DNA of 24,350 nucleotides, taken from IMG/VR virus record IMGVR_UViG_3300035670_001206, positions 1 through 24,350 of that record. The stretch is one strand, 5' to 3'. Of the stretch, positions 9,173 to 23,100 are shown one piece after another. Source of the stretch: a virus. Each line of letters begins with the position of its first letter. The stretch's first letter is position 1. The notes beneath the pieces were generated by a model. That model did no database searches. It was not told the origin of the DNA and was given only the letters and a program-made list of their open reading frames with translations. Position numbers and translations under genes: made by a program.

Positions 9173-10894
9173 CTAGGACCTAGAGATACTAATCCAGTCA
9201 GGAGAATATGTTGAAACCTCTATTTCTGAAATGGCTAGGTCAGAATCCTCTACTTGAATTGAATTATTGCCTAAATATAATTGATAATTACCTTGTGCGT
9301 TAGCATCGTTATTATTATAAATAGTTATATTTTTATATATATTATTAGGCAGGATTTCTGAGGACACTCCGCCAGAATGTTTCACGTTAAACCAAATATC
9401 ACCTGAAGCTGCTCCAGATAATTTAATAAAGATATGATTAGGCTCATCTATATTAAGGTGGCTAGAAATGTTTGCAGAGGCTGAGACGTCTTCTCCGTTT
9501 ATGTATAGTGAAGATATCCCAAGCTTTGAGATCGCCCCTCCAGAGGCCCAGGAAAGGCTGTATTCGGTGCCTTCTGTGACATTGTAAAGCATATAGCCAG
9601 CTCCAAGCTGTACTGGCGTGAAAAGAAATTCTAAATCTAAAATATCTTCAAGTATGTTTACTCTAAACCCAGAAGATTTACAAATTATTCCATCATTTTT
9701 TGCTCTTGATAAAACAGAATATTCTTTATTTGATATATCAATATCCCCATCTGGGGCAGCCTCAATATATCCTAATCCGTTATGAGAATATAATTTCTTT
9801 TCTGGATAAAAGAATATGTTTAAATAATATAATTCTGGAACATAAATTTCTGCATTAGTAGAAGAAAATTCAACTTTTATATAAATTATTTTTTTATTAT
9901 TAAGACTTGGTAGGGATGATCCATTTTCACATTGAGTCCAATTTGATTCATCTGTAGAGACAAATACATCCACCCCTTCTCCCGCCATCCATTCTATTTT
10001 AGAAGACACATAGTTTTTACGTATTGATAATCCAATTACCTCTGTAAAAGATCCAGAGGTTTTATTTGGCGCAAGGTAGATGCTGTTGTTTACTTCATCA
10101 TACAGAAGATCTTCGCCTAACATATACTCCCAGCTTTTTGAAGATGGATAAATAAATTTCTCTGTTTCCGATTGATGTTTTTCTGTTGCTCTAAATATAT
10201 ACCCACCATTTAATGAAGCTATTTGAGTATCAGAGACTGCGGTAGCCTTTAAGTAGTGTGACCGTATCTGTAAATCATTTAAAGAATATCTATATATTGC
10301 TGGGGCATCTATTATAAAACTTTCTCCAGATGCACACGGACCAGAAGATAATAATAACTCAGTATTTGAAAATTTAAAATTACTTAGTTTTTTAGATCTA
10401 ACCAAAACTCCATCGACATATAAAGAGATATAGTTCTTTTTATAAATTCCGACAACATGTATAGTTTTATTGGGATTGGGAAGTGTATATTCAATAGATT
10501 GTGTAGATAGTGAAAATATTATATTTCCATTGTCTAAAAATAAACCTATTCCTGTTTGCCCGCCCAATATTGGCGTTAATGAATTAATGTTTTTTGGATA
10601 AACCCAGGCCTCTAAAGAAAAATCATTATCGGATGTATATAGTGTTCCAAACGATTCCGTTGCGCTGTTTCCATAATAATCTTTAGTTATTGGAAACTCA
10701 ATATAAGAAGAATCTGTAATTGTTGTACCAGAAACACCTTGTGAGACTAATGGGAATATATTTTCGGAAACAAAACCTGTATAGTTTGCGTCGTTATTAC
10801 ATCCAGAATAGTCATAAGCAGTCGGACCAGAAACCTCATCCAACTTCCAAAACCCTAGTGGGTTATCCTTTACTACTGAAACATAATAAGACAT
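9173..10894 (-). CDS. LamG/concanavalin A-like virion protein
   Basis: A 573-residue, strongly beta protein. Residues 1-215 match the LamG / Laminin_G_3 jelly-roll pattern: an opening NPLGFWKLDEVSGPTAYDYS (family consensus: NP-x-x-x-W-x-L-D-E-S-G), FSLEAWVYPKNINSLTPIL, and YISLYVDGVLVRSKKL followed by YRYSLNDLQIRSHY. A second jelly-roll-like half appears at about 430-573 (YMLYNVTEGTEYSLSWASGG; INIDEP-type loop). In phages such proteins are tail-tip, fibre or head-surface proteins that bind glycans. No signal peptide or catalytic motif is visible. It is expressed alone from a leaderless promoter (10901-10909), sits between the oxygenase cassette and the head genes, and is divergent from the plus-strand oxygenase. 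The domain call is firm; the location in the virion is inferred. Confidence 0.75.
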   Translation of the reverse strand: MSYYVSVVKDNPLGFWKLDEVSGPTAYDYSGCNNDANYTGFVSENIFPLVSQGVSGTTITDSSYIEFPITKDYYGNSATESFGTLYTSDNDFSLEAWVYPKNINSLTPILGGQTGIGLFLDNGNIIFSLSTQSIEYTLPNPNKTIHVVGIYKKNYISLYVDGVLVRSKKLSNFKFSNTELLLSSGPCASGESFIIDAPAIYRYSLNDLQIRSHYLKATAVSDTQIASLNGGYIFRATEKHQSETEKFIYPSSKSWEYMLGEDLLYDEVNNSIYLAPNKTSGSFTEVIGLSIRKNYVSSKIEWMAGEGVDVFVSTDESNWTQCENGSSLPSLNNKKIIYIKVEFSSTNAEIYVPELYYLNIFFYPEKKLYSHNGLGYIEAAPDGDIDISNKEYSVLSRAKNDGIICKSSGFRVNILEDILDLEFLFTPVQLGAGYMLYNVTEGTEYSLSWASGGAISKLGISSLYINGEDVSASANISSHLNIDEPNHIFIKLSGAASGDIWFNVKHSGGVSSEILPNNIYKNITIYNNNDANAQGNYQLYLGNNSIQVEDSDLAISEIEVSTYSPDWISISRS

Positions 10895-10930: not shown

Positions 10931-11515
10931 ATGGGTCCCAAAATATTAGCACCAGGAATAGTTCAATTTGATTTTTCTGAAAAAGTTTACACTGAGCTTA
11001 TTGAAAAAATTAAAGATTATGACTCTAGCTTATGGGAAAAGTCTGGGTTTTATATGGAAGCAGAGCCTACTGATAGTAAGCCTAGAAGAAAGAGCCAAAG
11101 CGTTTCTCTAGCAAAAATAGATTCTGAACTTAATGATAAAATTGTTAAATCGGTAAAATTTAATAGCAATATTTATAAGTCTATGTATGGAATATCATTT
11201 GACAATTGCGAAGGATTAGATGTTTTGAAATATACTTCAGGAGACTATTTTTTGCCACACTATGATGGAAGTGCTAGTAAGTATAGGACCGTATCATTTT
11301 TAATATATTTAAATGTAAAAGAATATATTGGTGGAGAAACAATTTTTCACAATTTTAATTTAAAAGTTTCACCAGAAAACCCATGTATGTTATTTTTTCC
11401 AAGCAACTACCCGTACTCTCATTCATCATCCGTTATTCAAAGTGGTACTAAATATATTATAGTAAGCTGGTGTAATGATTTACCACATGGCAAGAATCAA
11501 AATCTTTTAGACTAA
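10931..11515 (+). CDS. 2OG-Fe(II) oxygenase, prolyl hydroxylase-like (plus strand)
   Basis: A 194-residue protein with the double-stranded beta-helix pattern of 2-oxoglutarate/Fe(II) dioxygenases of the prolyl 4-hydroxylase type. The iron triad is His110-x-Asp112 (PHYDGS) and His164 (PYSHSS), and Lys174 (SGTKYIIV) is the likely 2OG carboxylate binder. The core strand reads FLIYLNVKEYIGGETIF, related to the YLNDDYEGG motif of its paralogues. Such enzymes use O2 and 2OG to hydroxylate a C-H bond, releasing CO2 and succinate. It is the only plus-strand gene in the window. It faces the seven-paralogue operon and its stop overlaps that operon's last stop (CTAA). It appears leaderless. The substrate is unknown. 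Its orientation suggests inversion or separate acquisition. Confidence 0.85.
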   Translation: MGPKILAPGIVQFDFSEKVYTELIEKIKDYDSSLWEKSGFYMEAEPTDSKPRRKSQSVSLAKIDSELNDKIVKSVKFNSNIYKSMYGISFDNCEGLDVLKYTSGDYFLPHYDGSASKYRTVSFLIYLNVKEYIGGETIFHNFNLKVSPENPCMLFFPSNYPYSHSSSVIQSGTKYIIVSWCNDLPHGKNQNLLD

Positions 11516-12087
11516 TACCAGCTTCCAGTAGCGACATATCTAAGTCCATTAAATGTTGGGCTAGAAGTTAAAGTTATATCAGAAGGTAGTATAATAATAC
11601 TTCCTTTTTCTGGCTTAAGAAAAACTTTTGTGTTTTCTATGCTTATTGTTCCACCTTCGTAATTGTCATTAATAAACATCATTGCAAAGTATTTATTCTC
11701 TCCCATGGTGTGATGTAAATGTTTTTCATTATATTTTCTTAATGTCAAATCTTCATACAACCTAAACTGTTCATTTATATTATTAAACTTTTTATATTCT
11801 GAAAAAGCAAAATTTATTGTATGCTTTATACTGTTAACCAAATACAATTCTTTGTTGCTTGGATTTAAATCTCCATCTAGCAGATTAGCGTTTATAGTTT
11901 TTTGGAATCCATAATCTAAATTTTTTGAATTAGAATTGAGCTTTTCCCATTTTGATATTATTTTTTTATTGGAATTTTCGTCTATATCATTTTCTTCAAT
12001 ATAGGAAATGTACTTATCTGTTTCTTGCATGCAATACGTAAAATAAAATATTTTAGGAGCTAGCTCCTGAAAAACAAACATTGCCAT
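11512..12087 (-). CDS. Degenerate 2OG oxygenase-fold protein, iron ligands lost
   Basis: A 191-residue paralogue of the oxygenase array, the last gene of the operon. The core strand MMFINDNYEGGTISI and the 2OG-type Arg183 (GLRYVATGSW) are kept. The HxD motif is replaced by KHLHHTMGE (residues 122-130, no Asp), and the distal His position reads LTSSPTFNG (about 173-180, no His). It is full length with no frameshift or stop, so this looks like a retained pseudoenzyme rather than a decayed gene. It might serve as a partner or substrate-binding subunit of the active paralogues. The ATG at 12087 lies next to the stop of the preceding gene, and an AAGGTAGT-type site is upstream. An internal in-frame Met (residue 3) is an alternative start. 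Confidence 0.75.
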   Translation of the reverse strand: MAMFVFQELAPKIFYFTYCMQETDKYISYIEENDIDENSNKKIISKWEKLNSNSKNLDYGFQKTINANLLDGDLNPSNKELYLVNSIKHTINFAFSEYKKFNNINEQFRLYEDLTLRKYNEKHLHHTMGENKYFAMMFINDNYEGGTISIENTKVFLKPEKGSIIILPSDITLTSSPTFNGLRYVATGSWY

Positions 12088-12705
12088 TTATAAACTACCT
12101 TTCTCATTATTCATCCAAAAAGCTGGACACATTATTTTATTTCCAGATATCAGTATATCTGAAGCATGTAAAAATGGTTCTGAAGATGGGAATATAACTA
12201 AGCTGCCTGCTTCTGTCTTTATAGTTATATCATGATTTTTAAATCTTAGCTCTCCGCCTTCGTAATCGTCGTTAAGATATAAAACCATAGAGTATCTTAA
12301 TCGGTAATTACCATCATATTGATCTGCATGATCTCCAAGTCGCTGTCCGACAAAATATTTTTTTATTCCAAATTCTTTGTCTATAAGAACATCATAAGGT
12401 AAATTGTAAAACTCTTTATATTTTTCAGCACAATTAAAAAAGGCATTTTTAATTTGAGTGATTATATATTTTGGTCTTTCTGGAATTTCGTTTTCTATTG
12501 CGGTAAAACGACTATGCATATTTTCTCCATATATATCTTCTGGAGAATTGCTTGCATACCATGGCGTCCATTTTGTCAAAACATTTTCTCTGTCTATATC
12601 AATATCACTGTTTGATGCTTCAATTTCTTGTACTAATTTTTTAGGATTTTCTAGACAGTTGGTAAAATATAGGATCTGCGTGTCTAATTCTTTAAGATCA
12701 TACAT
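12088..12705 (-). CDS. 2OG-Fe(II) oxygenase, prolyl hydroxylase-like
   Basis: A 205-residue 2OG-Fe(II) dioxygenase. Counting from the ATG at 12705, the iron ligands are His126-x-Asp128 (LGDHADQY) and His180 (EPFLHASD), with Lys190 (SGNKIMCP) as the likely 2OG binder. The core strand is SMVLYLNDDYEGGELRF. The start at 12705 is preferred over an in-frame ATG at 12732 because AGGGAG lies six bases upstream and it overlaps the preceding stop by only 8 bases. The 12732 start would give nine extra residues, no ribosome site and a 35-base overlap. It shares a 31-base identical stretch with the next upstream paralogue, which suggests recent duplication or gene conversion. Substrate unknown. Confidence 0.85.
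   Translation of the reverse strand: MYDLKELDTQILYFTNCLENPKKLVQEIEASNSDIDIDRENVLTKWTPWYASNSPEDIYGENMHSRFTAIENEIPERPKYIITQIKNAFFNCAEKYKEFYNLPYDVLIDKEFGIKKYFVGQRLGDHADQYDGNYRLRYSMVLYLNDDYEGGELRFKNHDITIKTEAGSLVIFPSSEPFLHASDILISGNKIMCPAFWMNNEKGSL
12251..12281. repeat. 31-base identity shared with 13080-13110 (copy 1)
   Basis: This stretch codes for the YLNDDYEGGE core of one oxygenase and is identical over 31 bases to 13080-13110 in the neighbouring paralogue, although the flanks are diverged. It is a possible gene-conversion or recombination tract. Confidence 0.8.
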
Positions 12706-13561
12706 CGAAATCTCCCTTTTTGTACCACTCATCTACTTTATCTTGAATTTCTTCAGAAACCTCCCATTGTTTTTGCTTTACCCTAACGCTATCATAGCCT
12801 TCTGGATTTATCCAGAATCCTGGAATTAAATATTTCCATCCGCTTTTTACTAGGTGAGCGGTATGGCTAAACGGAGCTTGTGATGGGAATATTACACAGC
12901 TTCCAGCCTCTGGCTTTATGTAAAAATCTATTTTATCCTCATTGTATTCATCTAACACATCTTCAACAGCAGCATTAGGGTTTGTATCTCCATAATGTGC
13001 CACTAAATGATTCCATGGATTATCTTTAAATTCTTTGTCAATATTACTCAATACTCCATCTTTTACAGTAAAAGATATTTCTCCGCCTTCGTAATCGTCG
13101 TTAAGATATAGCACAAGAGAGTGCTTTAATCTTGTATCGCCTTCTTGAGAATCGTAGTGTGTACCCATCCAAGTTCCAGCCTTATATTTATGAACTCCAA
13201 ATTGCCAAAGTAAATCTATTTCTTCGTTTATATTATTTCTTTTGGCATAATCTTCACATACTGATTTGAATGCATTAAATATTACATCAAAAACTTCTTT
13301 TGAAATTTCATAGTTTTCTTTATTTAGGCTCCATGGCTCTTCATCTATATCCCTAACATCATTTAGTGTAATAATTTTTTTAAGACCATAAACGTATCTT
13401 TGCCCTCTATCTACATCAACTCCCCATTCTTCCCATTTTGGAAATATATTGGTTATACTATCATTAGTTTCAGTAGCTTCTATCATCTCTATAAGTTTTT
13501 TGGGGTCTTCTATAACATTTCTGTAATAAAAAATTCCATTTTTTTCTTTATCTAAATACAT
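12698..13561 (-). CDS. 2OG-Fe(II) oxygenase with internal insertion
   Basis: A 287-residue dioxygenase, the longest of the array. Ligands: His135-x-Asp137 (MGTHYDSQ), His233 (PFSHTAH) and Lys243 (SGWKYLIP). The core strand is LVLYLNDDYEGGEISF. Compared with its neighbours it has an insertion of about 45 residues (roughly 167-212, acidic and Asn/Asp-rich) between the core strand and the IKPEAGSCVIFPS strand. That places it beside the active-site mouth, where substrate specificity is usually set. The C-terminus extends about 37 residues past the last core strand (INPEGYDSVRVKQKQW onward), ending in a charged helix. The ATG overlaps the preceding stop as TAATG, with AGGAG upstream. Substrate unknown. 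Confidence 0.85.
   Translation of the reverse strand: MYLDKEKNGIFYYRNVIEDPKKLIEMIEATETNDSITNIFPKWEEWGVDVDRGQRYVYGLKKIITLNDVRDIDEEPWSLNKENYEISKEVFDVIFNAFKSVCEDYAKRNNINEEIDLLWQFGVHKYKAGTWMGTHYDSQEGDTRLKHSLVLYLNDDYEGGEISFTVKDGVLSNIDKEFKDNPWNHLVAHYGDTNPNAAVEDVLDEYNEDKIDFYIKPEAGSCVIFPSQAPFSHTAHLVKSGWKYLIPGFWINPEGYDSVRVKQKQWEVSEEIQDKVDEWYKKGDFDV
13080..13110. repeat. 31-base identity shared with 12251-12281 (copy 2)
   Basis: Second copy of the identical core-strand stretch, in the 12698-13561 oxygenase. Related but changed versions lie in the other paralogues. Confidence 0.8.
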
Positions 13562-14313
13562 TATTTTACTCCTAAGGCAACATCTTTTTTAGCAGTTTGA
13601 TCTGGACCTGGTTTCATTCGCTCTCCACGCTCTTTCATTTTTGCCCAAAGCTCTGCGTCGTCTGCTTGTTGCTTTCTTTGCTCGGCAATATCTTTTTCCC
13701 AAAAATCTTGTTTTTCTTTACTGTAAACAACTTCAGCGTTATCCCAAAATGATCCTATGGTCAATCTTAATCCTTTAGTTATCATTTGTACCTCATGAAT
13801 ATTATGATGACCTCCAGCAAAAGCTACGAGCATGCCAACTTTAGGTGTAATAGAAATTTCATGATCTCTAAAGTTTAAAACTCCTCCTTCAAAATCATCA
13901 TTAAGATATAGAAATGCTGCCCATTTGCTTCTTTCAAAAGAATTAAATTCTGGTGAATCTATTGGCGTATTGTCTGAATGATATCCTGCATAGGCACCTT
14001 CAACCCACTTTTGACAATGATAGCTTACTTCTCTGACTTTGTCTCCCCTGCAAATTTCAACTGCGTCTTTTATTTTATTTTTTAATTCTATAAAAAAATC
14101 TGTATGAAGTCCAAAGTCTTCTTTTTCTGCCGTGTCTGGAACATTTGATGCAAATGAATCATAGAACGATATTGGATCCCATATTAAGTATCCTTTTTCT
14201 ACTGCAACATCCCAATATTTTATAATAGAATTGCATTGCTCTGCAGTTATAAAGTTTTCAAAAATCATTATATCTTCTTTAGTACGTATTTGATTTTCTA
14301 AGTTAAATGTCAT
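13561..14313 (-). CDS. 2OG-Fe(II) oxygenase, prolyl hydroxylase-like
   Basis: A 250-residue dioxygenase. The N-terminus (MIFENFITAEQCNSIIKYW, from residue 16) is the typical opening helix of prolyl 4-hydroxylase-like proteins. Ligands: His112-x-Asp114 (GYHSDNTP), His173 (HHNIHEVQ), and Arg183 (KGLRLTIG) in the 2OG-binding position. The core strand is FLYLNDDFEGGVLNF. A charged C-terminal tail of about 60 residues (EKQDFWEKDIAEQRKQQADD and on) is probably helical and is absent from most paralogues. The ATG at 14313 overlaps the upstream stop (ATGA) with AGGAG ten bases before it; Met16 is a less likely start. Substrate unknown. Confidence 0.85.
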   Translation of the reverse strand: MTFNLENQIRTKEDIMIFENFITAEQCNSIIKYWDVAVEKGYLIWDPISFYDSFASNVPDTAEKEDFGLHTDFFIELKNKIKDAVEICRGDKVREVSYHCQKWVEGAYAGYHSDNTPIDSPEFNSFERSKWAAFLYLNDDFEGGVLNFRDHEISITPKVGMLVAFAGGHHNIHEVQMITKGLRLTIGSFWDNAEVVYSKEKQDFWEKDIAEQRKQQADDAELWAKMKERGERMKPGPDQTAKKDVALGVK

Positions 14314-15149
14314 CGTATTCTTTCTCCTAATGATATCTGATCTTCTGATACATGGGTATACTCTCCCTTTTCTATGCCTTCCTTAATTCTAGCATTTTCC
14401 ATCTCTGCCCAAATCTCTTTGCCATATAAGTCTTCATTAATTTTCCAGTCAGAATCTCCATCATAGAACCAAGTCCAGTGGTTTCTTATAAAATATTTTG
14501 GAGATTTTGTAACTTTCTTAACTCCATGATAATAAAGTTCGTTGTTTTCAGATAAATATTTAGGGTCTCCTGCTGGAAACACCAAAATGTCTCCAGCCTT
14601 AGGCTTATAATAAAAAAGCTTATTGTCTACAAAAAAATCTACACCTCCGCCATCATAGTCGTCGTTCAAGTACATGGTACAGGTAATTGCAAATTTATAT
14701 CCACGCATACCCTCTCTTTCTTTTTGATAGTCAGTATGATAATGCATGGTGAGGTCTGATTCTTCTATGCCTCCTCCAGGCTCGTATTTACAAATAGAAG
14801 GGCCCATTCTTCTCCACAACTCTGTATCAGAATTTGTCTTTGAATCAAAAACGGTGGCTTCCCTATCTATTGGTACATTAAAATATTTTGAGTAGTGGTC
14901 TGTAGTTTTATAAAAAACTTCTATAACTTCTTCCCATACGTCTATTTCTTTTTTATTTTGTTCTGTATCACATTTAGAAACATCCAACATGTCTGTTTCT
15001 TTGCCAAATGTATACCATGAATGCCACCCACCAAGAGCTGAATTTTCTGGATTTTTTTCAGAATTTGTTATAACTTTTAGTGTTTCTTCAACATCTTTAA
15101 AAACATTTTTATAAACAAATATCTTAGAATATATCTCTTCAAATTCCAT
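14310..15149 (-). CDS. 2OG-Fe(II) oxygenase, prolyl hydroxylase-like
   Basis: A 279-residue dioxygenase. Ligands: His138-x-Asp140 (MHYHTDYQ), His208 (LYYHGVKK) and Lys218 (SPKYFIRNHW). The core strand is CTMYLNDDYDGGGVDFF, and the KPKAGDILVFPAGDP strand is typical of the family. The distal His-Gly (YHGV) is shared with the 15152 paralogue, while other members have His-Ala or His-Thr, so at least two subgroups exist in the array. A C-terminal extension of about 50 residues carries WKINEDLYGKEIWAEMENAR. The start lies two bases after the upstream stop and has only a weak ribosome site (GAAAG), so coupling is likely. Substrate unknown. Confidence 0.85.
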   Translation of the reverse strand: MEFEEIYSKIFVYKNVFKDVEETLKVITNSEKNPENSALGGWHSWYTFGKETDMLDVSKCDTEQNKKEIDVWEEVIEVFYKTTDHYSKYFNVPIDREATVFDSKTNSDTELWRRMGPSICKYEPGGGIEESDLTMHYHTDYQKEREGMRGYKFAITCTMYLNDDYDGGGVDFFVDNKLFYYKPKAGDILVFPAGDPKYLSENNELYYHGVKKVTKSPKYFIRNHWTWFYDGDSDWKINEDLYGKEIWAEMENARIKEGIEKGEYTHVSEDQISLGERIR

Positions 15150-15151
15150 AT

Positions 15152-15841
15152 CTACGGCTTTCTGTCTCCAGTATGCTTCAGTATCCTCCAGAAAAATGGG
15201 GACGTAAATCTATTTCCAGAAATTATTGGGCGAACTCCATGTATATAAAATCTATCTCCTGGGAAAAAATATGCTGCTCCAGCTTTTGGCTTTATCTCTA
15301 CGCCCTGAACTGGAAAATATAATTCTCCACCTTCATAATCATCATTAAAATAGAATATTGATGCTATATCATAATGAGGAAAATCATTAGGAGTTCCAGC
15401 ATCTGGACCCTCATGTAACTCTTTATCTGCATGTGGATCTTGTCTTGTTCCAACTGGCCATCTAACTATTGCTGGTCCAGTAGCTTGTACATCTACATTA
15501 AAAAATTTATCTACTTCAACTTTTAATCTTGTTATTAGTCCTTCTACTACATCAATAATAGTTGGATCGTGAGAAATTTCCATGGATCTTCTAGTGCAAA
15601 CTCTATTGGCCCAGGCGTTTGCATCATATATTACTGTGCCGTTGTCATTAACATGTGAATCTGTTATGTCCCAAGTTTTGTTATTAAAAGCAAACTCTGT
15701 TAATCTGACTTTTTCTTCTTCGGTCAAAAAGTTTTCTAGCTCTACTATATTTTCTGCTCCATCTCCAAAAAATCCTGATGGCGTGATAGACACTAATTTT
15801 TTATAATTATGATCTTCATTTGTATTTATCTGATTTTGCAT
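15152..15841 (-). CDS. 2OG-Fe(II) oxygenase, prolyl hydroxylase-like
   Basis: A 229-residue dioxygenase. The N-terminal part has the P4H-like opening VELENFLTEEEKVRLTEFAF. Ligands: His137-x-Asp139 (QDPHADKE), His201 (FYIHGVRP) and Arg211 (SGNRFTSPFFW). The core strand is SIFYFNDDYEGGELYFP, followed by EIKPKAGAAYFFPGD. With Arg as the 2OG binder and a loop HEGPDAGTPNDFP between HxD and the core strand, it differs from the Lys-type members. The start overlaps the upstream stop as TAATG, and AGGAG lies 12 bases before it. It follows directly after the DUF6065-like trio, so it is the first of the six-gene block. Substrate unknown. Confidence 0.87.
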   Translation of the reverse strand: MQNQINTNEDHNYKKLVSITPSGFFGDGAENIVELENFLTEEEKVRLTEFAFNNKTWDITDSHVNDNGTVIYDANAWANRVCTRRSMEISHDPTIIDVVEGLITRLKVEVDKFFNVDVQATGPAIVRWPVGTRQDPHADKELHEGPDAGTPNDFPHYDIASIFYFNDDYEGGELYFPVQGVEIKPKAGAAYFFPGDRFYIHGVRPIISGNRFTSPFFWRILKHTGDRKP

Positions 15842-16563
15842 TATTTATACTTTCTCCTAGACCAAAAATTCTTTTTGTATACTCCGCCTTCTGGTGTCCT
15901 AAATGTTTCTGAGGTTTCTTGAGTTTTCTTTATAATCTCATGTAGTGTATGAAATTCAATACTCATTTCCCAATCCTCTCTTTTAAAAGGAATTACTTGC
16001 AGGTATGGAGTACCAGCTGGCACTGTCCCAATAAATCCACTTTTTAAAAAAAATGGTATTAGCCCAGAAGTCGTAACCTTGTCACTATCTATTATACCAC
16101 CGACAGTAATCCATGGTAAATCAAAATGATTTATTGGCTGAACGTAGAGACAACTATATCCTTCTGGAACTTGTGGCGCCCAGTTTGCATACCAATGAAA
16201 ATGTTTTTTATCGTAACCATTTGGAACGGCAAATCCATCCATTGCTGGTCTCTCGCCACAAAAATCCTCAAATTCTATTGGAACCCTTACTTTAGTCCTA
16301 CCATTTTTTTCATAAAATTCTAAATCACAGGGGGTTAATAAAACATACCCAGTTGTAAAGGTATCTAAAATTGCAGGGCATGCTTTAAAGCTTGGCATTC
16401 TGCCCTCTCCATTCCAATTAGCTACGGGATTACCATTAGAATCTTTTACATACACTTCAGAATCGTGCCACCATTTTGGAAGATGTTTTGCAATGGGCTC
16501 TGGTGCATTTTTACCTTCCTTATTGTTGTATATTTTATTTGAATGAAAAATTATTTTATTCAT
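15841..16563 (-). CDS. DUF6065-like protein, third of three relatives
   Basis: A 240-residue protein of unknown function, a close paralogue of the next upstream gene. Shared blocks include a start IIFHSNKIYNN, PAILDTFTTGYVLLTPCDLE, PPGY/PNGYDKKHFHWYANWAPQVPEGY, NHFDLPWITVGGIIDSD, PFFLKSGFIGTVPAGTPYLQ and VIPFKREDW, ending in a basic FWSRRKYK. The PAGTPYLQVIPF block is also seen, more loosely, in the DUF6065-like gene 17269-17985, so all three may share one fold. No metal-binding or nucleotide-binding motif stands out. The many Trp, Phe and Pro residues suggest a beta-rich binding protein. It overlaps the upstream gene by 8 bases and is followed by an oxygenase (TAATG overlap), so it is tightly co-expressed with the oxygenases. 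Confidence 0.7.
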   Translation of the reverse strand: MNKIIFHSNKIYNNKEGKNAPEPIAKHLPKWWHDSEVYVKDSNGNPVANWNGEGRMPSFKACPAILDTFTTGYVLLTPCDLEFYEKNGRTKVRVPIEFEDFCGERPAMDGFAVPNGYDKKHFHWYANWAPQVPEGYSCLYVQPINHFDLPWITVGGIIDSDKVTTSGLIPFFLKSGFIGTVPAGTPYLQVIPFKREDWEMSIEFHTLHEIIKKTQETSETFRTPEGGVYKKNFWSRRKYK

Positions 16564-17272
16564 ACTTTTTCCTTATCCAAAATTTTTCTTTATAATTAGT
16601 TTTTGTTTTAGATATAAAATTACCCTTTTGCTCTTTAAATATTTTTAACAATTGTTCCTCATCATAATAATTAACTTCAGACTTCCATTCTTCTTGATGA
16701 AATGGAATTATTTGCATGTACGGGGTTCCTGCTGGAATAAAACCCTCAAAACCCTTTTTAATAAAAAATGGAGCCTTGCCAGCATAACCAAACTCATCGC
16801 AATCAATAAATCCAGATATAGTTAAAAATGGAAGATCAAATCTATTTAATGGGTGAGTAGCTAAAACGGTATAACCTTTGGGGACTTGGGGCATCCAATT
16901 AATCTGCCAAAAAAAATGAATTGATTCATATCCTGGAGGAGTTGGGAATCCTGATTCCTCTCCTCTTATGCCTCCAAATAATTCAAATCCTTTTTCAAAT
17001 ACTATCCCAAAATTATCGTTTTGACGCACTATAAGAATATCACATGGAGTACGTAATAAGTATCCGCTCAATAATGAATCTAGTATAGCTGGACAAGTTT
17101 TCCAACTTCCTATTTCTTCATTTTGGCAAGAGGCTCTGTTGCCTTCCTTATCTTTTTTATATCTATCTCCCTTTTTAAACCATCTTGGTAATAATAATTG
17201 TCCAGGTATAGGCTCATATTCTTTTGTATTATTATTAAATAAAGCTCTAGAGTTAAAATAAATTTTTTTCAT
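16556..17272 (-). CDS. DUF6065-like protein, second of three relatives
   Basis: A 238-residue protein of unknown function. It aligns along its whole length with the 15841-16563 product: IYFNSRALFNNNTKEYEPIP, a CPAILDSLLSGYLLRTPCDI block, PTPPGYESIHFFWQINWMPQ, VPKGYTVLATHPLNRFDLPF, PFFIKKGFEGFIPAGTPYMQ, IIPFHQEEW, and a basic FWIRKKYE end. The pair is an obvious tandem duplication that has since diverged strongly. Codon use and AT content match the surrounding array. The ATG at 17272 overlaps the upstream stop as ATGA. The role is unknown. Linkage to the oxygenases suggests an accessory or substrate-binding function, but this is inference. Confidence 0.7.
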   Translation of the reverse strand: MKKIYFNSRALFNNNTKEYEPIPGQLLLPRWFKKGDRYKKDKEGNRASCQNEEIGSWKTCPAILDSLLSGYLLRTPCDILIVRQNDNFGIVFEKGFELFGGIRGEESGFPTPPGYESIHFFWQINWMPQVPKGYTVLATHPLNRFDLPFLTISGFIDCDEFGYAGKAPFFIKKGFEGFIPAGTPYMQIIPFHQEEWKSEVNYYDEEQLLKIFKEQKGNFISKTKTNYKEKFWIRKKYE

Positions 17273-17985
17273 TTTAAGCTACATATTTCTGGACCATTTA
17301 TAACCTTTAGGCGCAAAGATTTAACTTCGTGTTCTCCAATTTTATTTCCATTGTGATCTGTGGCATTTCTATAAAAATCTGTCCATTTTCCAGACTTGTT
17401 TATATCGCTTACTATTTTCCCATAATCTACACCTGGGAAAAAATTAATAGGTAGCTCAGATCTATCTTTTATAATTGCTTCTGAATTATTCAAATCTTTT
17501 AAGCATATTGGCATTATAGAAATTATTGGAGTGTTAGGTGGTATTGTTATAATAGTATTAGGCCTAGTTATTTTCCATGCTACAGGAAATGTCCCTTTAA
17601 AAAAAGATGTGCTTATTAAAGTAGTAAATGGCCAAACTCCATCTATGGGCCAGTTTGGAACTGGCATTGCCATCATACTTAGCGTTTCGTCAGTTCTTAT
17701 TACTAGGTTTGTATTAAAGCTAATAGTAGCATTTGCTCTAGCGGTAGAAACAAACTCTTCCCCAGATAAAACCTTTACATGTTCGTGATTTGAGTCTGAT
17801 ATTCCGTCCCAAATAAATGATATTTCTTTAGGAAAAGATAGACCCCATCCTAGCCCATTTGATAGACTTACTGGAAAACAATGATAAGCATGCTTATCTG
17901 AAGTCTGTTCCATCCATTCTCTTTTTATTCCCAAAGCGTTTATTTCAGCAGAAATACTGGCTACTTTATAAACTTCAAATTGCAT
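17269..17985 (-). CDS. DUF6065 family protein
   Basis: A 238-residue protein that I associate, with moderate confidence, with the uncharacterised DUF6065 family. The diagnostic N-terminal part reads KREWMEQTSDKHAYHCFPVS, then LSNGLGWGLSFPKEISFIWD. The C-terminal part has PNWPIDGVWPFTTLISTSFF and TIPPNTPIISIMPICLKD. The last block lines up with PAGTPYLQVIPF of the two following genes, and LGWGLSFPKEISFIWDG with their SGYxLxTPCD segment, so the three are probably distant homologues. No catalytic motif is apparent. The gene starts directly after the stop of the first oxygenase (TAAATG), so the oxygenase and this protein are made from the same mRNA in linked amounts. Confidence 0.7.
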   Translation of the reverse strand: MQFEVYKVASISAEINALGIKREWMEQTSDKHAYHCFPVSLSNGLGWGLSFPKEISFIWDGISDSNHEHVKVLSGEEFVSTARANATISFNTNLVIRTDETLSMMAMPVPNWPIDGVWPFTTLISTSFFKGTFPVAWKITRPNTIITIPPNTPIISIMPICLKDLNNSEAIIKDRSELPINFFPGVDYGKIVSDINKSGKWTDFYRNATDHNGNKIGEHEVKSLRLKVINGPEICSLK

Positions 17986-18654
17986 TTAGTATGGATCTTT
18001 CATTGATTTATCAGACATGAATTGTCTATAAAATTGTTCATTGTGTGTCGCATCATTATAATCTGTCATTGTTACAATTGAATATTTGGTTCCAGATTTT
18101 ACTGGCAATGCAGCATGAGAAAATAAATAATTAGATGGGAATATATATAGGTCTCCAGCCTTAGGCTTTATTGTTTTATCTATTTTGTCAAATCTTATTC
18201 CACCATCTTCATAGTCATCATTTATATAGGCAACCATTGATACCGTAGCAATATATGACCATCCATGGTCTGAATGATAAGAAAAGTGTTGTCCTGGTCC
18301 ATACTTTACAAAGTTCATGGCTTCCCAGTATTTCATTTCTATATTATAGTATGCACAATAGTCATCTAAAGCTTTTTTTTGTGCATCGTAAACATCTTTC
18401 CATATTCCATCAAATTCTTTTTGATACCTATCTTTGCCTGGATAATCAAAATATTTTAATTTAAAGTCTACACAGTCTCTATATTCTGGAACCTTTTCTC
18501 TGTATCCTACAGTAGCATCTTTCCAGTTATACAAGCCGCCGCTGTCTTTCATGGTATCTTCTATTCTATTTATAATATCCATTTTTGGATTAATTATATT
18601 TCTATATACCCAAAGACCAGGAAACAGCTCTTCTTTTTCTAGATCAATTATCAA
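17986..18654 (-). CDS. 2OG-Fe(II) oxygenase, prolyl hydroxylase-like (first in operon)
   Basis: A 222-residue dioxygenase. Ligands: His127-x-Asp129 (SYHSDHGW), His180 (LFSHAALP) and Lys190 (SGTKYSIV). The core strand is SMVAYINDDYEDGGIRF followed by TIKPKAGDLYIFPSN. The N-terminus has the family's ELFPGLWVYRNIINPK opening. It starts with TTG at 18654, overlapping the upstream Cys-rich gene by 11 bases, with GGGGA eight bases upstream; no nearby ATG would keep the opening strand. It is closest in motif style (FSHAA, SGTK) to the plus-strand member. It precedes the DUF6065-like trio rather than the six-gene block, so the array is not a simple run of duplicates. Substrate unknown. Confidence 0.87.
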   Translation of the reverse strand: MIIDLEKEELFPGLWVYRNIINPKMDIINRIEDTMKDSGGLYNWKDATVGYREKVPEYRDCVDFKLKYFDYPGKDRYQKEFDGIWKDVYDAQKKALDDYCAYYNIEMKYWEAMNFVKYGPGQHFSYHSDHGWSYIATVSMVAYINDDYEDGGIRFDKIDKTIKPKAGDLYIFPSNYLFSHAALPVKSGTKYSIVTMTDYNDATHNEQFYRQFMSDKSMKDPY

Positions 18655-18889
18655 TGTTTTTTCCCCATCTACCTAATGGACAACTAAAACTATTTAGTTT
18701 AGCTTTTTCTTCTATAAAACAATTACACTGTTTGCACTGTTTTGATGTTTTAATAAATTCTGGGCAAAGGCTGCAAAGAGCCAATCTTTCTTTTTGTGAA
18801 TTTTCAGAAGCATATTTGTTTTTGTTTATTAAATCCCATGAGTTTGATATTTTTTTATATTTTTCCCAATTAGAAAAATTATTTTCCAT
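18644..18889 (-). CDS. Small Cys-rich probable zinc-binding protein
   Basis: An 81-residue protein. Residues 39-75 carry six Cys: C39-x2-C42, C52-x2-C55-x-C57 and C70 in SCPLGRWG. The order CxxC, CxxCxC, a Lys-rich loop and a CPLGxW end resembles a small phage protein type I have seen next to 2OG-Fe(II) oxygenase genes in marine phages; I cannot name the family with certainty. Four or more of the Cys could hold zinc or iron. A role in metal handling or as a partner of the oxygenases is possible, but unproved. The start codon lies two bases after the preceding stop with no clear ribosome site, so it depends on coupling. The N-terminal 35 residues are charged and probably helical. Confidence 0.7.
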   Translation of the reverse strand: MENNFSNWEKYKKISNSWDLINKNKYASENSQKERLALCSLCPEFIKTSKQCKQCNCFIEEKAKLNSFSCPLGRWGKNIDN

Positions 18890-18891
18890 TT

Positions 18892-19299
18892 TTAATTACT
18901 GGATATAAAAGAATTTCCGTCCCACTTATCTCCCACTAAAACAAGGTCGTCTTCTGGAATTACTATAAATTTAGGATTTGATGAAAGTCCAGCTTCCCAT
19001 CTTTTTCCTATTTCAGTATTATTTGTCCAAAAAATATCAAAAACAATTCCATCAAGAATCATAGCAAATCCTTTTTCGACATCTTCTGGTTTCTCATACT
19101 GTATTTCAGTATCTGGAGCAGTAAATGAATTATTTGAATATCCCCATCCAGGTGTGATATTAGAATTATTTTCTAATTCTACAACAGAAGGAGAAGAGGC
19201 CCATTTGTCCCATTGATTTTCGTTCTTTAGCGTATTAAAGCTAACTACGCCAAAGACATCCTCTCCTGATACTGCTGCTATGCTTCTAATTATTTTCAT
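18892..19299 (-). CDS. Small tail-fibre-assembly-like protein
   Basis: A 135-residue protein, the first gene of the oxygenase operon. The segment NITPGWGYSNNSFTAPD and the ending VGDKWDGNSFISSN resemble the motif of a short Gly-Trp-x-Tyr stretch before an F-x-x-P that is common in tail-fibre assembly and DUF4376-type proteins. The resemblance is short, so I call it only 'like'. The rest is a mixed alpha/beta domain (EKGFAMILDGIVFDIFW). The ATG at 19299 is preceded by AAAGGAG with seven bases of spacing, and a TTGAAA-17-TATACT promoter lies just upstream, so this is the operon leader. Its place between the fibre genes and the oxygenases fits a chaperone or attachment role. Confidence 0.6.
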   Translation of the reverse strand: MKIIRSIAAVSGEDVFGVVSFNTLKNENQWDKWASSPSVVELENNSNITPGWGYSNNSFTAPDTEIQYEKPEDVEKGFAMILDGIVFDIFWTNNTEIGKRWEAGLSSNPKFIVIPEDDLVLVGDKWDGNSFISSN

Positions 19300-19350: not shown

Positions 19351-20406
19351 CTAGAAAGTACATCTGCTGCTAAGCCACCAGCCTCCATTACACGCACACC
19401 CTGCGGAAGTTCCAATTGGCAAACAACCGAAGAATGGTGGGAAGAATGGTGGGAAGTGAGGTGGGAAGAATGGTGGGAAGTGAGGTGGGAAGTGTGGTGG
19501 GAAGAATGGTGGGAAGTGAGGTGGGAAGAATGGTGGGAAGTGAGGTGGGAAGTGTGGTGGGAAGAATGGTGGGAAGTGAGGTGGGAAGAATGGTGGGAAG
19601 TGAGGTGGGAAGTGTGGTGGGAAGAATGGTGGGAAGTATGGTGGGAAGAATGGTGGGAAGAATGGTGGAAAGTGAGGTGGGAAGAATGGCGGGAAGAATG
19701 GTGGGAAGTGCGGTGGGGTAAATGTTTGAATTGGTGAGGTTGTGCCACCCAATGATTCTCCATTTGCGTTTGATGCATAAACTGTATAAGATTCATCAGC
19801 ACTTGAATCTGGCAGAGTTGGATCTAAGGTGTCATATGGAGATGAAGCACTTGAAGATAGGGTTCCTCTTACGCTGGATGCAACTCTATATGAAGATATG
19901 GCCTTACCGCCATTTACGCCAGCGGACCATGTAATTCTGTCATATCCAGACGAAGGAGTTGGGCTTGGACCTGCGGCTCCAGTAGAAACAGAAACTGATT
20001 GTGGTGCCTGAGGAACTGTAGTTGCAGTAACGCTATCAGATACCGTATTTGGAGATTTTGCTGTCCCAGCATTATTTTTTGGGATTACGGTAAAGTTGTA
20101 TGATACATTAGATTCTAGTCCTTCAAATGTAAATGATGTCCCTGCTCCAGCATAGTTTACCGTTACTGTTTGGTTATCAGATATTCTAGTGGCAGTTATA
20201 TCATAATTTGTAGCAGGTGGAGAAGCTTCTGGTAATGTCCAAGAAAGAGATGCGGCTCCACCTTGACCAGATGTTCCGTTAAATGTTGTAGAATAAGGCC
20301 TACTAGTTCCTACATCAGTGGCACTTAGGCCTGTCACATTTAATGGTTCTAAAAAGTTATCCTGTGCAGAACCTTTCGTACCTATTCTTTTCTTAGATAA
20401 TGCCAT
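19351..20406 (-). CDS. FN3-domain protein with PPxF tandem repeat and Cys-rich tip
   Basis: A 351-residue probable virion surface protein. Residues about 22-130 and 133-230 are two fibronectin type III-like domains ([74 protein letters not shown]). Residues 231-326 are 24 perfect tetrapeptides Pro-Pro-x-Phe with x = His, Phe or Tyr (48 prolines). The last 25 residues are Cys/Trp/Gly-rich ([20 protein letters not shown]). AAGGAG lies seven bases before the ATG at 20406. The repeat must be extended or polyproline-like and could span between FN3 domains and the Cys-rich tip. Since prolyl hydroxylase-like genes begin 50 bases downstream, this is the obvious candidate substrate. Its exact place in the virion is unknown. 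Confidence 0.85.
19429..19716 (-). repeat. 24 x 12-bp tandem repeat coding for PPxF
   Basis: Twenty-four in-frame 12-base units, each of the form GAAG(A/T)(A/G)TGGTGG or close on the plus strand. Within them a 60-base, five-unit block is repeated three times without a single difference (19441-19500, 19501-19560, 19561-19620). Since 12 is a multiple of three, all six frames are open here; only the frame joined to the FN3 domains has a proper start. Perfect higher-order repetition points to recent expansion by slippage or unequal recombination. Confidence 0.95.
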
Positions 20407-20427: not shown

Positions 20428-23100
20428 TTATGCGGACAAATCTCCGATTAATAACCATGAATCTGTTCCACGCTTAAATAATGTTGCTGATGAATATTGA
20501 GCTCTTAAATTTAATCCTGGGGTTGCATTAATTGTAACTCCAGATCCTGCTGCGACAACCACTGCTCCAGCGCCCATTCTTACAATATCCCATGAAGCTC
20601 CAATTGGGAAGGCTGCTGTTGAATTTGGCGGAACTGTTAGTGTTACTGAGCTAGCGCTATTTACCTCTATCAAAGAGTCTCTATATGCTAAATCACTTAA
20701 TGTTGCAGAAGATGTAATTGCATTGCTGTTTGCAGCGCCATAAATTACTGTTCTTGAAGGAACTGCTTCTTTCGTCTGAGTACCGTCTGTAAAGACAACT
20801 CCAGATGCTGAAGCTGTTATTGCTCCAGTTGCGGTTATTGCCACTGCATCTAAATTATTTAACTCAAGATCGTCTAATGATCCTTCTGTGAAATCAACGG
20901 TTGTTGATGGCTCTGTAGTAACGCCTTTGAAAAGCTTCCACTTATCTGCAGAAACGTCTCTGACAACACCAGAATGCTTAGCTGAACCATCATTATAAGC
21001 TACAACCAAACCAAGGTCTACAGTATTTGCAGCGTTTTGATGTGCAAGCTGAACCATATTATCTTCAATAACAATTGATGTTGAGCTAGCATTAAACGTT
21101 GTACCGTTTACAGTTAAGTTTCCATCTACCGTAAGGTTTTGATCAATTTCTACTGAACCCGTAAATGTCTGGCTGGCAGCATTTAAGTATGCTAGCTGTG
21201 CTGTGTCGGAAATTCCGTGTACTGAAGTAGTATCAGAATTGTGTGTAGAAACTGCGGAATCTGCATATCCTTGAGCAGCTGTCTGTGCTGTGCTTACATC
21301 ATTGCTTGTTGCAAGTGCGGATGTATCTGCTATTCCGTGTACTGAAGTGGTTGCTCCTGTATGTGAATTTAGGTCTGCATCTAGTGCTTTGGCTGCTAGA
21401 TCTGTTGTTAAATTAGCAATCTTAGATTGAGCAATTTCTGCAGAGGCTGATATATCTGCATTAACTATAGTGCCGTCTGCGATTTTAGCAGATGTAATTG
21501 CAGAATCTGCTATATCGCCTGTATCTATTGTTCCATCTAAAATCATTGCTGATGTTATTGTGCCATCTGGCAATGTAACTGTTCCAGTAAAAGTTGGGCT
21601 AGCTAATGGTGAATAAGTAGAAGAAGCTACTGTCGAATCTAGCTTTTCATCTATTTGTGATTGCAATCCACCAGTTACGCCGCTTAAATATCCAATCTCT
21701 GTTGAAGTAACACTTCCAACGCTTGTTGTACTTGGCAATGTTACTGTACCAGTAAAGGTTGGGTCAGCACTTGGCGACTTCGCATCGATCTGGAATTGGA
21801 TTCCGCTAGTGACTCCGTCTAAGTAGCTAATCTCTGTTGCGCTTACATCTCCAATGTCAGTGGTAGAAGGCAACACGACTGTACCAGTAAAGGTTGGATT
21901 AGCGCTTGGCGACTTCGCATCAATCTGGAATTGGATTCCGCTAGTGACTCCGTTTAAGTAACCAATCTCTGTTGCGCTTACATCTCCAATGTGAGTGGTA
22001 GAAGGCAATACGACTGTACCAGTAAAGGTTGGGTCAGCACTTGGCGACTTCGCATCAATCTGGAATTGGATTCCGCTAGTGACTCCGTTTAAGTAACCAA
22101 TCTCTGTTGCGCTTACATCTCCAATGTGAGTGGTAGAAGGCAATACGACTGTACCAGTAAAGGTTGGGTCAGCACTTGGCGACTTCGCATCAATCTGGAA
22201 TTGGATTCCGCTAGTGACTCCGTCTAAGTAGCTAATCTCTGTTGCGCTTACATCTCCAATGTCAGTGGTAGAAGGAAGATTAACTGTGCCACTAAATACT
22301 GGATCTGCTTTAGGAGCTTTTAGGCTATCTAAATTATTTAAAGATGAAGTTACTGCTGAAGCAAAATTTGCGTCATCACCAAGAGCGTCAGCTAGTTCTC
22401 CAAGAGTATTTAAAAGTGAAGGTGCAGTTCCTATTAAATCTGTTATTTGTCCGTCTGTATAAGTGTTAGCTGCTGATTCTGCTGCGTTGGCCTTGCTTGT
22501 TGCATCTGCTGCTGCAGTTGCTTCTGCTGCTGCTTGAGCTGCGTTGGCCTTGCTTGTTGCATCTGCTGCTGCAGTTGCTTCTGCTGCTGCTTGAGCTGCG
22601 TTGGCTTTAGAAGTTGCATCTGCTGCTGCAGTTGTTATAGCATCTGCTTCTGCCTGGTCAGCATAAGCCTGTGTTGCAATGGTTGTGGTATCAACTGAAA
22701 CTGTTAGGGTATTTGCAGCATCATCGTAAGATTTTGTTATACCAGTACCTGCTGTTAATGCATCATTAATTGAATCTTGTGCAACTTCTGCTAATTCTGC
22801 TTTTGTGGCAATAACAGAAGTATCTACAGATACAGTAATTGTATTTGCATTATCATCATATGATTTTGTAATACCTGTTCCCGCAACAAGTGCATCATTA
22901 ATGGCATCCTGTGCAATCTCGCTTATTTCTGGTGAATCTGCAGCCACATAATCTAAAGATGTCCATGCAGTGGTGCCGTCACCAACTTTTACTTTTCTAG
23001 TGTCTGTTTCAACACCCATTTCTCCCGCTACTAAAGTAGGATTTGCTGAGGTCCACTGCGCTGCAGTTCCTCTTCTAAGCTGAATTCTTACTGTTGCCAT
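20428..23100 (-). CDS. Long tail fibre protein with Mtd-like N-terminus and 45-residue repeats
   Basis: An 890-residue fibre. Residues 1-52 match the Mtd / phage fibre N-terminal domain (QLRRGTAAQWTSANPTLVAG; GVETDTRKVKVGDGTTAW). Two duplicated blocks of about 44 residues follow (AQDAINDALVAGTGITKSYD and AQDSINDALTAGTGITKSYD). Next come three 19-residue Ala-rich helical repeats, then five copies of a 45-residue beta repeat (PTFTGTVVLPSTTHIGDVSA, then TEIGYLNGVTSGIQFQIDAK). The C-terminus (residues about 780-890) is beta-rich (NSITSSA-type, then LTVPPNSTAAFPIGASWDIV) and is probably a fibre tip rather than a chaperone domain. ATG at 23100 has AGGGG 11 bases upstream and an extended -10 promoter (23124-23132). 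It lies 21 bases before the FN3 gene. Fibres bind host receptors. Confidence 0.85.
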   Translation of the reverse strand: MATVRIQLRRGTAAQWTSANPTLVAGEMGVETDTRKVKVGDGTTAWTSLDYVAADSPEISEIAQDAINDALVAGTGITKSYDDNANTITVSVDTSVIATKAELAEVAQDSINDALTAGTGITKSYDDAANTLTVSVDTTTIATQAYADQAEADAITTAAADATSKANAAQAAAEATAAADATSKANAAQAAAEATAAADATSKANAAESAANTYTDGQITDLIGTAPSLLNTLGELADALGDDANFASAVTSSLNNLDSLKAPKADPVFSGTVNLPSTTDIGDVSATEISYLDGVTSGIQFQIDAKSPSADPTFTGTVVLPSTTHIGDVSATEIGYLNGVTSGIQFQIDAKSPSADPTFTGTVVLPSTTHIGDVSATEIGYLNGVTSGIQFQIDAKSPSANPTFTGTVVLPSTTDIGDVSATEISYLDGVTSGIQFQIDAKSPSADPTFTGTVTLPSTTSVGSVTSTEIGYLSGVTGGLQSQIDEKLDSTVASSTYSPLASPTFTGTVTLPDGTITSAMILDGTIDTGDIADSAITSAKIADGTIVNADISASAEIAQSKIANLTTDLAAKALDADLNSHTGATTSVHGIADTSALATSNDVSTAQTAAQGYADSAVSTHNSDTTSVHGISDTAQLAYLNAASQTFTGSVEIDQNLTVDGNLTVNGTTFNASSTSIVIEDNMVQLAHQNAANTVDLGLVVAYNDGSAKHSGVVRDVSADKWKLFKGVTTEPSTTVDFTEGSLDDLELNNLDAVAITATGAITASASGVVFTDGTQTKEAVPSRTVIYGAANSNAITSSATLSDLAYRDSLIEVNSASSVTLTVPPNSTAAFPIGASWDIVRMGAGAVVVAAGSGVTINATPGLNLRAQYSSATLFKRGTDSWLLIGDLSA
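21641..22315 (-). repeat. Five 135-bp tandem repeats in the fibre gene
   Basis: Units of exactly 135 bases begin at 21776, 21911, 22046 and 22181, with a diverged fifth at 21641. The middle units differ by very few bases, among them the Asp/His change before IGDVSA and the Ser-Tyr-Leu-Asp / Gly-Tyr-Leu-Asn change. The DNA, and not only the protein, is nearly identical, so the array was amplified recently. Copy number would change fibre length. Confidence 0.95.
22501..22671 (-). repeat. Three 57-bp tandem repeats in the fibre gene
   Basis: Repeat units start at 22501, 22558 and 22615 and code for a 19-residue Ala-rich helix (EATAAADATSKANAAQ). The first two copies are identical over nearly their whole length and the third has a few changes. 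They likely form a coiled-coil spacer in the fibre stalk. Confidence 0.85.

Follow-up and report, generated by a model that had tools for sequence, protein, structure and literature searches.

We examined the whole of the virus record IMGVR_UViG_3300035670_001206, 24,350 bases (the window), which is about 99.8% identical to a 44.6-kb IMG/VR contig (L008, L088, L092). Between its laminin-G-like and fibre-like genes sit eight genes resembling 2-oxoglutarate (2OG)-Fe(II) oxygenases, as well as three that are DUF6065-like and two small ones. Oxygenase gene A (10931..11515; family f12) is on the plus strand. The others are on the minus strand: B, a pseudo-oxygenase of family f07 without iron ligands (11512..12087); C and D, both of family f02 (12088..12732 and 12698..13561); E of f01 (13561..14313); F of f04 (14310..15149); G of f03 (15152..15841); and H (17986..18654), which belongs to the core clade H1 of family f00. 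The DUF6065-like genes U1 (15841..16563), U2 (16556..17272) and U3 (17269..17985), likewise on the minus strand, lie between G and H. Upstream of this cassette, at 19351..20406 on the minus strand, is a gene for a protein with a fibronectin-III (fn3) domain (PF00041, expect value [E] 2.2e-9), a tail of HFPPFFPP-type repeats and a Cys-rich C terminus. We propose this protein as the substrate of the oxygenases. Its repeat tail is encoded by a tandem DNA array at 19429..19717 (no strand assigned) with periods of 24, 36 and 60.

All eight oxygenase-fold open reading frames (ORFs) lie where a preliminary description of this DNA had placed them. By reading the sequences, we observed HxD, a distal His and a basic residue at His+10 in seven of the eight, as had been claimed; the basic residue is Lys in A, C, D, F and H and Arg in E and G. 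Seven proteins also passed the 27-bit cutoff of PF13640, with E values from 4.8e-8 to 4.5e-13 (A, 4.9e-10; C, 1.7e-11; D, 3.1e-10; E, 3e-8; F, 3e-8; G, 4.8e-8; H, 4.5e-13). The protein said to lack the ligands is B, which has lost both the Asp and the distal His, and the same is true of its relatives. B had no Pfam family match at E<=1 and was matched by PHROG models only; by BLAST it resembles C (E 3.5e-16). The PHROG family phrog_61 matches the cassette oxygenases with E values down to 8e-27. A shared YLNDDYEGG core had also been described. Only C and D have it to the letter; one to three positions are changed in E, F, G, H and B, and A (YLNVKEYIGGE) is further away. As for the three DUF6065-like proteins, only U3 is a Pfam DUF6065 match (PF19541, E 3.9e-30; 105.5 bits against a cutoff of 26.6), and U1 and U2, which are 41% identical, belong to phrog_7084 and had no Pfam match at E 0.1. 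After two rounds, the profiles of U3 and of the phrog_7084 group had 378 matches in common (of 381 and 378).

What kind of oxygenases might these be? The predicted structure of H (pLDDT, the predicted local distance difference test, 91.8) has the double-stranded beta-helix fold that had been expected. Among the 50 matches listed for it, 49 were titled prolyl hydroxylases, and the first was an algal prolyl 4-hydroxylase (P4H) with a (Ser-Pro)5 peptide (3gze; Z 19.6, root-mean-square deviation [rmsd] 2.4, 173 aligned); the absence of other families from the match lists, for H as for U2 below, carries no weight. Comparison of the H profile with PDB sequences gave a bacterial P4H as the best match (E 2e-6). 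By fold and nearest solved relatives, H, the one oxygenase modelled, is thus predicted to be a protein prolyl hydroxylase. Its fold is common to algal P4H (3gze, 2jig), PHD2/EGLN1, the Pseudomonas EF-Tu P4H (4iw3) and bacterial P4H (3itq, 5hv0). These enzymes share with H the HxD...H motif and the Lys at His+10, and they are its nearest relatives by structure and profile. However, identity to them is 14-19%, and the cassette is phage-encoded, with many paralogues per genome that are matched to repeat motifs.

The DUF6065-like proteins gave a different picture. The model of U2 (pLDDT 92) had dUTPases as all 50 of its listed matches, the best being 2y8c (Z 10.2, rmsd 2.7, 118 aligned); this likeness is of middling Z and spans half of the model. 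None of U1 to U3 had a Pfam dUTPase match at E 0.1, and the profile of the DUF6065-like group found nothing below E 0.46 among PDB sequences. In a set of 50,697 phage records, U2 matched haloarchaeal tailed viruses at 25-34% identity. The homologue in halovirus HSTV-2 adjoins thymidylate synthase, which is of interest given the dUTPase-like fold.

We looked for scatter of the cassette genes in related phages and found them linked at one place instead. The arrangement is more than chance: oxygenase genes of the cassette sit there in each of 26 regions. These are the window, L092, whose sequence is cut at that point, and 24 further ones that include near-copies of each other. Together with the predicted fold of H, this linkage supports the dedicated modification system that the preliminary description had suggested as their role. 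The stretch singled out there leaves out the likely target, the fn3 protein. In 22 of the 26 regions the gene for this protein is found upstream of the oxygenases; in the remaining four (L089, L094, L099 and L105) the sequence begins within or close to the cassette. Its repeat sequences vary among relatives. Repeat number differs as well: the protein has 351 residues in the window and 371 in the near-identical contig L092. When we searched in reverse, from the profile of H, 71 loci were long enough to be tested (a further 11 were too short), and 66 of them had a repeat protein no more than 6 kb upstream. On reading the five misses, we observed that three carry repeats, one is cut and one (L415) is a true miss.

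Does the number of oxygenases follow the type of tail? Relatives of the fn3 protein, collected with three seeds, comprised 237 ORFs, of which 58 were dropped for having too little downstream sequence. The 179 that were kept represent 173 loci and 67 clusters, and one representative of each cluster was scored. Tails with at least two PP (51 clusters) were followed by one to nine oxygenases, with a mean of 6.1, whereas those with fewer (16 clusters) were followed by zero to two, with a mean of 0.6 (Mann-Whitney p 2e-9, kinship not corrected). Family f00, which holds gene H, was found in 51/51 PP clusters and 0/16 others. A U3-like gene was present in 49/51 and 0/16 and U1/U2-like genes in 46/51 and 6/16, respectively. 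Across 24 chosen whole contigs, we counted 6-15 matches to PF13640 in the 12 with PP tails and 0-3 in the 12 without. Tails of the VPVP type (L289, L295) had no oxygenase downstream, and those of the FGFSPF type had none or one, mostly of the separate family f06. Where the repeats were near-exclusively of the single-Pro kind (L281, L232), there were just two f00 genes and no members of the G, E or C/D families.

Perhaps the repeat protein, or also its fibre or laminin-G neighbour, is modified on Phe, Tyr or His side chains and not on proline? The motif holds Phe and Tyr besides Pro, B and the doubled C/D family accompany His-containing repeats, and the modified residue is not visible from sequence. 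However, proline-free tails that are rich in Phe and Tyr (YNFYNF; L190, L286) had no oxygenases downstream, and the model of H is nearest to prolyl hydroxylases. We regard modification of these side chains as rather improbable.

If proline is the target, do individual paralogues recognize particular repeats? Family f00 splits into the core clade H1, to which the window's copy belongs, and a clade H2, which is absent from the window. H2 was defined on the tree via gene position, and the tail was not used. All clusters whose tails contain the motif FP[FY]F, in which proline stands singly, had H2 (33/33), and none of the others did (0/34). On the tree of fn3 N termini for the 51 PP clusters, the motif changed 10 times and H2 changed 10 times, with 10 joint changes. 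A cruder rule, in which a second f00 copy was expected with FPFF, was dropped in favor of the clade rule once the tree had been made.

The motif FP[FY]F was chosen after the first data had been seen. Hence, we tested the rule on loci fetched by other queries. These numbered 106, of which 75 had an fn3 gene; one (L092) was dropped, 24 that were too near were counted apart, and 50 were new, a held-out locus being one whose fn3 N terminus was less than 85% identical to any used. Among the 50 held-out loci, H2 was present in 14/14 with FP[FY]F and in 0/36 without; when these loci were grouped into 36 clusters, the counts were 13/13 and 0/23. The loci nearer to those already used behaved in the same way (9/9 and 0/15). 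Other pairings of paralogue and motif are exploratory. Of the 67 clusters, only those with HFPP tails had the pseudo-oxygenase family f07 (6 of 8), and the iron ligands are missing in all of its members seen, six besides the window's own copy (L128). Exploratory pairings are also those of doubled f02 with HFPP and of f04, f05 and f10 with their motifs.

Several observations weigh against so close a match between cassette and tail. Family f06 was present only with non-PP tails (7/16 clusters), and three loci are outliers in oxygenase number: L263 has a PP count of 9 and one oxygenase, at an open end, while L281 and L232 have two each. As noted, FP[FY]F was picked with the first data set in view. 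Among the held-out negatives, two (L383, L386) were without a scored f00, and f00 copy number alone gives a weaker rule (32/33 versus 3/18). Extra f00 copies in L244, L261 and L274 fall outside H2, and because they sit on long branches, their place on the tree is unsure. Extra H1-like copies also occur, with no FPFF, in held-out loci L376, L408, L418 and L419. Further 2OG genes lie away from the cassette in these genomes, and a sulfotransferase/Asp hydroxylase pair that adjoins a PP protein in one relative (see below) is found beside one non-PP tail as well (L280). No PP-repeat protein lies near the 2OG genes in the four cyanophage and Erwinia-phage stretches that we read. Hence, the repeat rule does not hold for all phage 2OG genes.

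The kinship tests belong on the same side. The fn3 tree is weakly supported, with 17 of 64 inner branches starred, and its starred branches gave only 3 pairs for PP and cassette and 2 for FPFF and the second f00 copy. With so few pairs, these tests were unable to reach p 0.05. Pairing over the whole fn3 tree gave 4-5/5 and 7-8/10 concordant pairs, respectively, and none opposed. We also built a tree from s9 and portal, for which 79 rows had s9, 38 had enough portal and 25 remained after removal of near-copies. Here the non-PP state is for the most part that of a single backbone clade; PP changed 4 times and the cassette changed 2 times. Of the two pairs on starred branches, one was concordant and the other showed no difference, which is a weak test.

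Perhaps, then, the repeat protein is simply inherited along with the neighboring oxygenases, both being swapped as one piece while the enzymes act on something else? Neighboring genes do recombine as a unit, and the split on the portal tree falls mostly in one clade. However, neither the 67 clusters nor the 36 held-out ones have a single exception to the pairing of one particular paralogue, H2, with one short motif, and the fn3 tree has the 10 joint changes described above. Moreover, the fn3 N-terminal and portal trees place L190 differently, yet its tail and cassette are still matched. Linked inheritance alone is, we think, an unlikely explanation.

We conclude, with a probability of roughly 0.8, that the cassette is a set of 2OG/Fe(II) prolyl hydroxylases that modifies the proline-aromatic repeats of the adjacent fn3 protein and whose paralogues read different motifs. 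Prolines of the repeat tail would be hydroxylated during or after synthesis. PP repeats such as FFPPFF would be the target of the core set, made up of H1, G and E, usually with C/D and often with F, and the lone proline of FP[FY]F would be that of H2. HFPP repeats would be accompanied by B, the pseudo-oxygenase, and by a doubled C/D family. Holding or chaperoning the substrate may be the task of the DUF6065-like proteins. New hydroxyls could be decorated by a GlcNAc (N-acetylglucosamine)-transferase or a sulfotransferase encoded beside the substrate in some relatives. The fn3 repeat protein is probably a tail-region protein of the particle, and it would join that region in its modified form, where a more soluble, stickier or glycan-bearing fibre could be the benefit. 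What the data show are the genes, how they are linked, the match between motif and enzyme, and the predicted folds of H and U2; activity, the residue that is modified, a place in the virion, the part played by U1 to U3, decoration and benefit are inferred.

A more elaborate version of this proposal remains tentative, and we rate it somewhat below even odds. Here, the tail would carry a hydroxylation code, a repeat grammar (FFPP, FPFF, HFPP, APPGFF) read by matching paralogues with the aid of the pseudo-oxygenase and the dUTPase-fold proteins, and the hydroxyls would then be variably glycosylated, sulfated or methylated. If such a code exists, the surface chemistry of the fibre, beyond its sequence, would evolve against hosts, and the fibre would be to phages what extensins, mussel foot proteins and collagens are elsewhere.

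Candidates for follow-on chemistry were observed beside the substrate gene in three relatives. L168 has a GlcNAc-transferase gene (PF11397, E 8e-21), L129 has a sulfotransferase (PF03567) together with an Asp/Asn hydroxylase (PF05118), and L175 has a TylF-type methyltransferase. The genes that adjoin the repeat protein in these loci (L168:11818-12813, L129:3973-7639 and L175:11481-12101) also include a luciferase-like monooxygenase. All such genes are sporadic. Those like PF11397 were found at 9 loci among those searched, at 3 of which the fn3 gene is followed by one within 1 kb. We take the Skp1 glycosylation enzyme to belong to PF11397 too. Prolyl 4-hydroxylation in the Dictyostelium Skp1 pathway is followed by glycosylation of the hydroxyproline (PMC3515798), a sequence of steps that the PF11397 gene beside the substrate of L168 recalls. 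The Skp1 pathway differs in that it modifies a single site of an oxygen-sensing protein, whereas here the target would be a long repeat array.

Viral enzymes of this fold are known. The viral collagen prolyl hydroxylase (vCPH) of Paramecium bursaria Chlorella virus-1 (5c5t) is virus-encoded and has the same fold as the H model (Z 17.4, rmsd 2.7, 161 aligned). However, it comes from an algal virus, and its substrate is by name of the collagen type, whereas the protein considered here is an fn3 protein with PP-aromatic repeats. A study cited in PMC9301287 reportedly presents evidence for 4-hydroxyproline in viral proteins. The 2OG-Fe(II) oxygenases of T4-like cyanophages belong to the same PHROG family as the cassette, phrog_61. 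In Synechococcus phage S-H9-1 (L357:10329-12645), two 2OG genes directly follow short tail fibre genes, with no PP repeats close by, and other tail proteins may be targets of 2OG enzymes in cyanophages. Phages had been said to carry often one or two such genes, which is too low: up to five are reported per T4-like cyanophage genome in PMC3037559. In a Baltic Sea paper, viral use of prolyl 4-hydroxylase is called cryptic (PMC9301287).

For the cyanophage oxygenases, PMC3037559 proposes modulation of 2OG or DNA repair. Could either apply to the cassette? Enzymes that act on DNA or nucleotides, like AlkB or TET/JBP, would serve genome modification or repair, and besides the cyanophage proposal, this idea can draw on the dUTPase-like predicted fold of U2 and on a weak match of C to PF12851 (Tet_JBP). 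That match, the best obtained, reached 14.6 bits, far below the cutoff of 34.9; moreover, the block sits in a module of virion genes and tracks a protein repeat motif. A role in nucleic acid chemistry is therefore very unlikely. In a metabolic role, 2-oxoglutarate would be drawn down to steer host nitrogen signalling, as the cyanophage proposal has it. Such a role predicts neither the matching of paralogues to motifs nor the loss of the oxygenases with proline-free tails, and we give it less credence still.

In our searches of open-licence PubMed Central text, no paper listed, PMC10436341 included, describes the cassette or the link between oxygenases and repeats, and DUF6065 was found in none. 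Among the genes of aquatic phages that lack an explanation, those for 2OG oxygenases are some of the most common. A candidate phage-encoded substrate, a motif rule that had no exception in the 67 clusters and the 36 held-out ones, and an enzyme that can be named for every test make the role of these enzymes directly answerable at the bench. If prolyl hydroxylation of the repeats proves true, phages would modify their own particles by a multi-enzyme posttranslational chemistry whose substrate grammar is legible from sequence. The cassette would also supply new enzymes for peptide modification, and a fold and a context would be gained for DUF6065.

We also asked where else these genes occur. The fn3 protein had no match among the 50,697 phage records. 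A scan of a genome collection with the fn3 profile gave 16 pattern matches and no relative; thus, no host or cellular copy was found by that scan. A scan of the collection with the H profile gave 80 loci, of which the first two (L440, L441) are close; they lie in metagenome-assembled genomes labelled Chitinophagaceae and Verrucomicrobiales and may be binned phage contigs.

Besides the cassette, the minus strand of the window carries the virion genes of a tailed phage, namely those for portal, head protease, capsid, adaptor and tail. The portal gene lies at 7187..8767 (phrog_12) and the gene for the major capsid protein at 4677..5711 (phrog_1623). The neighbors that flank the cassette and the fn3 gene, also on the minus strand, encode the laminin-G-like protein (9173..10894; PF13385, E 3.4e-13) and the fibre-like protein, which has a major tropism determinant N-terminal domain (20428..23100; PF18454, E 2.4e-18). 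The order of portal, protease, capsid, adaptor and tail genes is that of the Stanwilliamsviridae Streptomyces phages such as Faust, whose capsid protein is 58% identical to that of the window. Faust differs in having an endolysin, a ribonucleotide reductase and two glycosyltransferases upstream of the portal, and the 31-kb stretch examined there had no oxygenase match.

Two small genes on the minus strand separate H from the fn3 gene. The one next to the fn3 gene (18892..19299) matches phrog_14370 (E 3.4e-7). The other (18644..18889) is the Cys-rich gene of the preliminary description; it does match DUF6171, though below the cutoff (23.6 versus 27 bits), and it is not constant among relatives.

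Some minor features of the relatives deserve mention. In the YNFYNFYNY tails (L190:7923-9607, L286), Asn stands in place of the Pro seen elsewhere. The small family f06 accompanies tails such as FGFSPFGVF and is perhaps suited to that repeat. Twelve contigs stop within the repeat array, as though the assembly breaks there (L143, L145, L148, L155, L158, L164, L181, L183, L308, L330, L340 and L341). Some repeat tails (L095, L096, L100, L202 and others) are followed by a C-terminal domain that we presume to be of the Hint/intein kind. Far from the cassette, at L116:3741-6890 (contig G013) and in L125/L127 (G027), there is another cluster, made up of three 2OG oxygenases of greater length (about 337-363 residues). 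Finally, a minus-strand ORF at L117:9757-10017 contains an AFLAG pentapeptide repeat.

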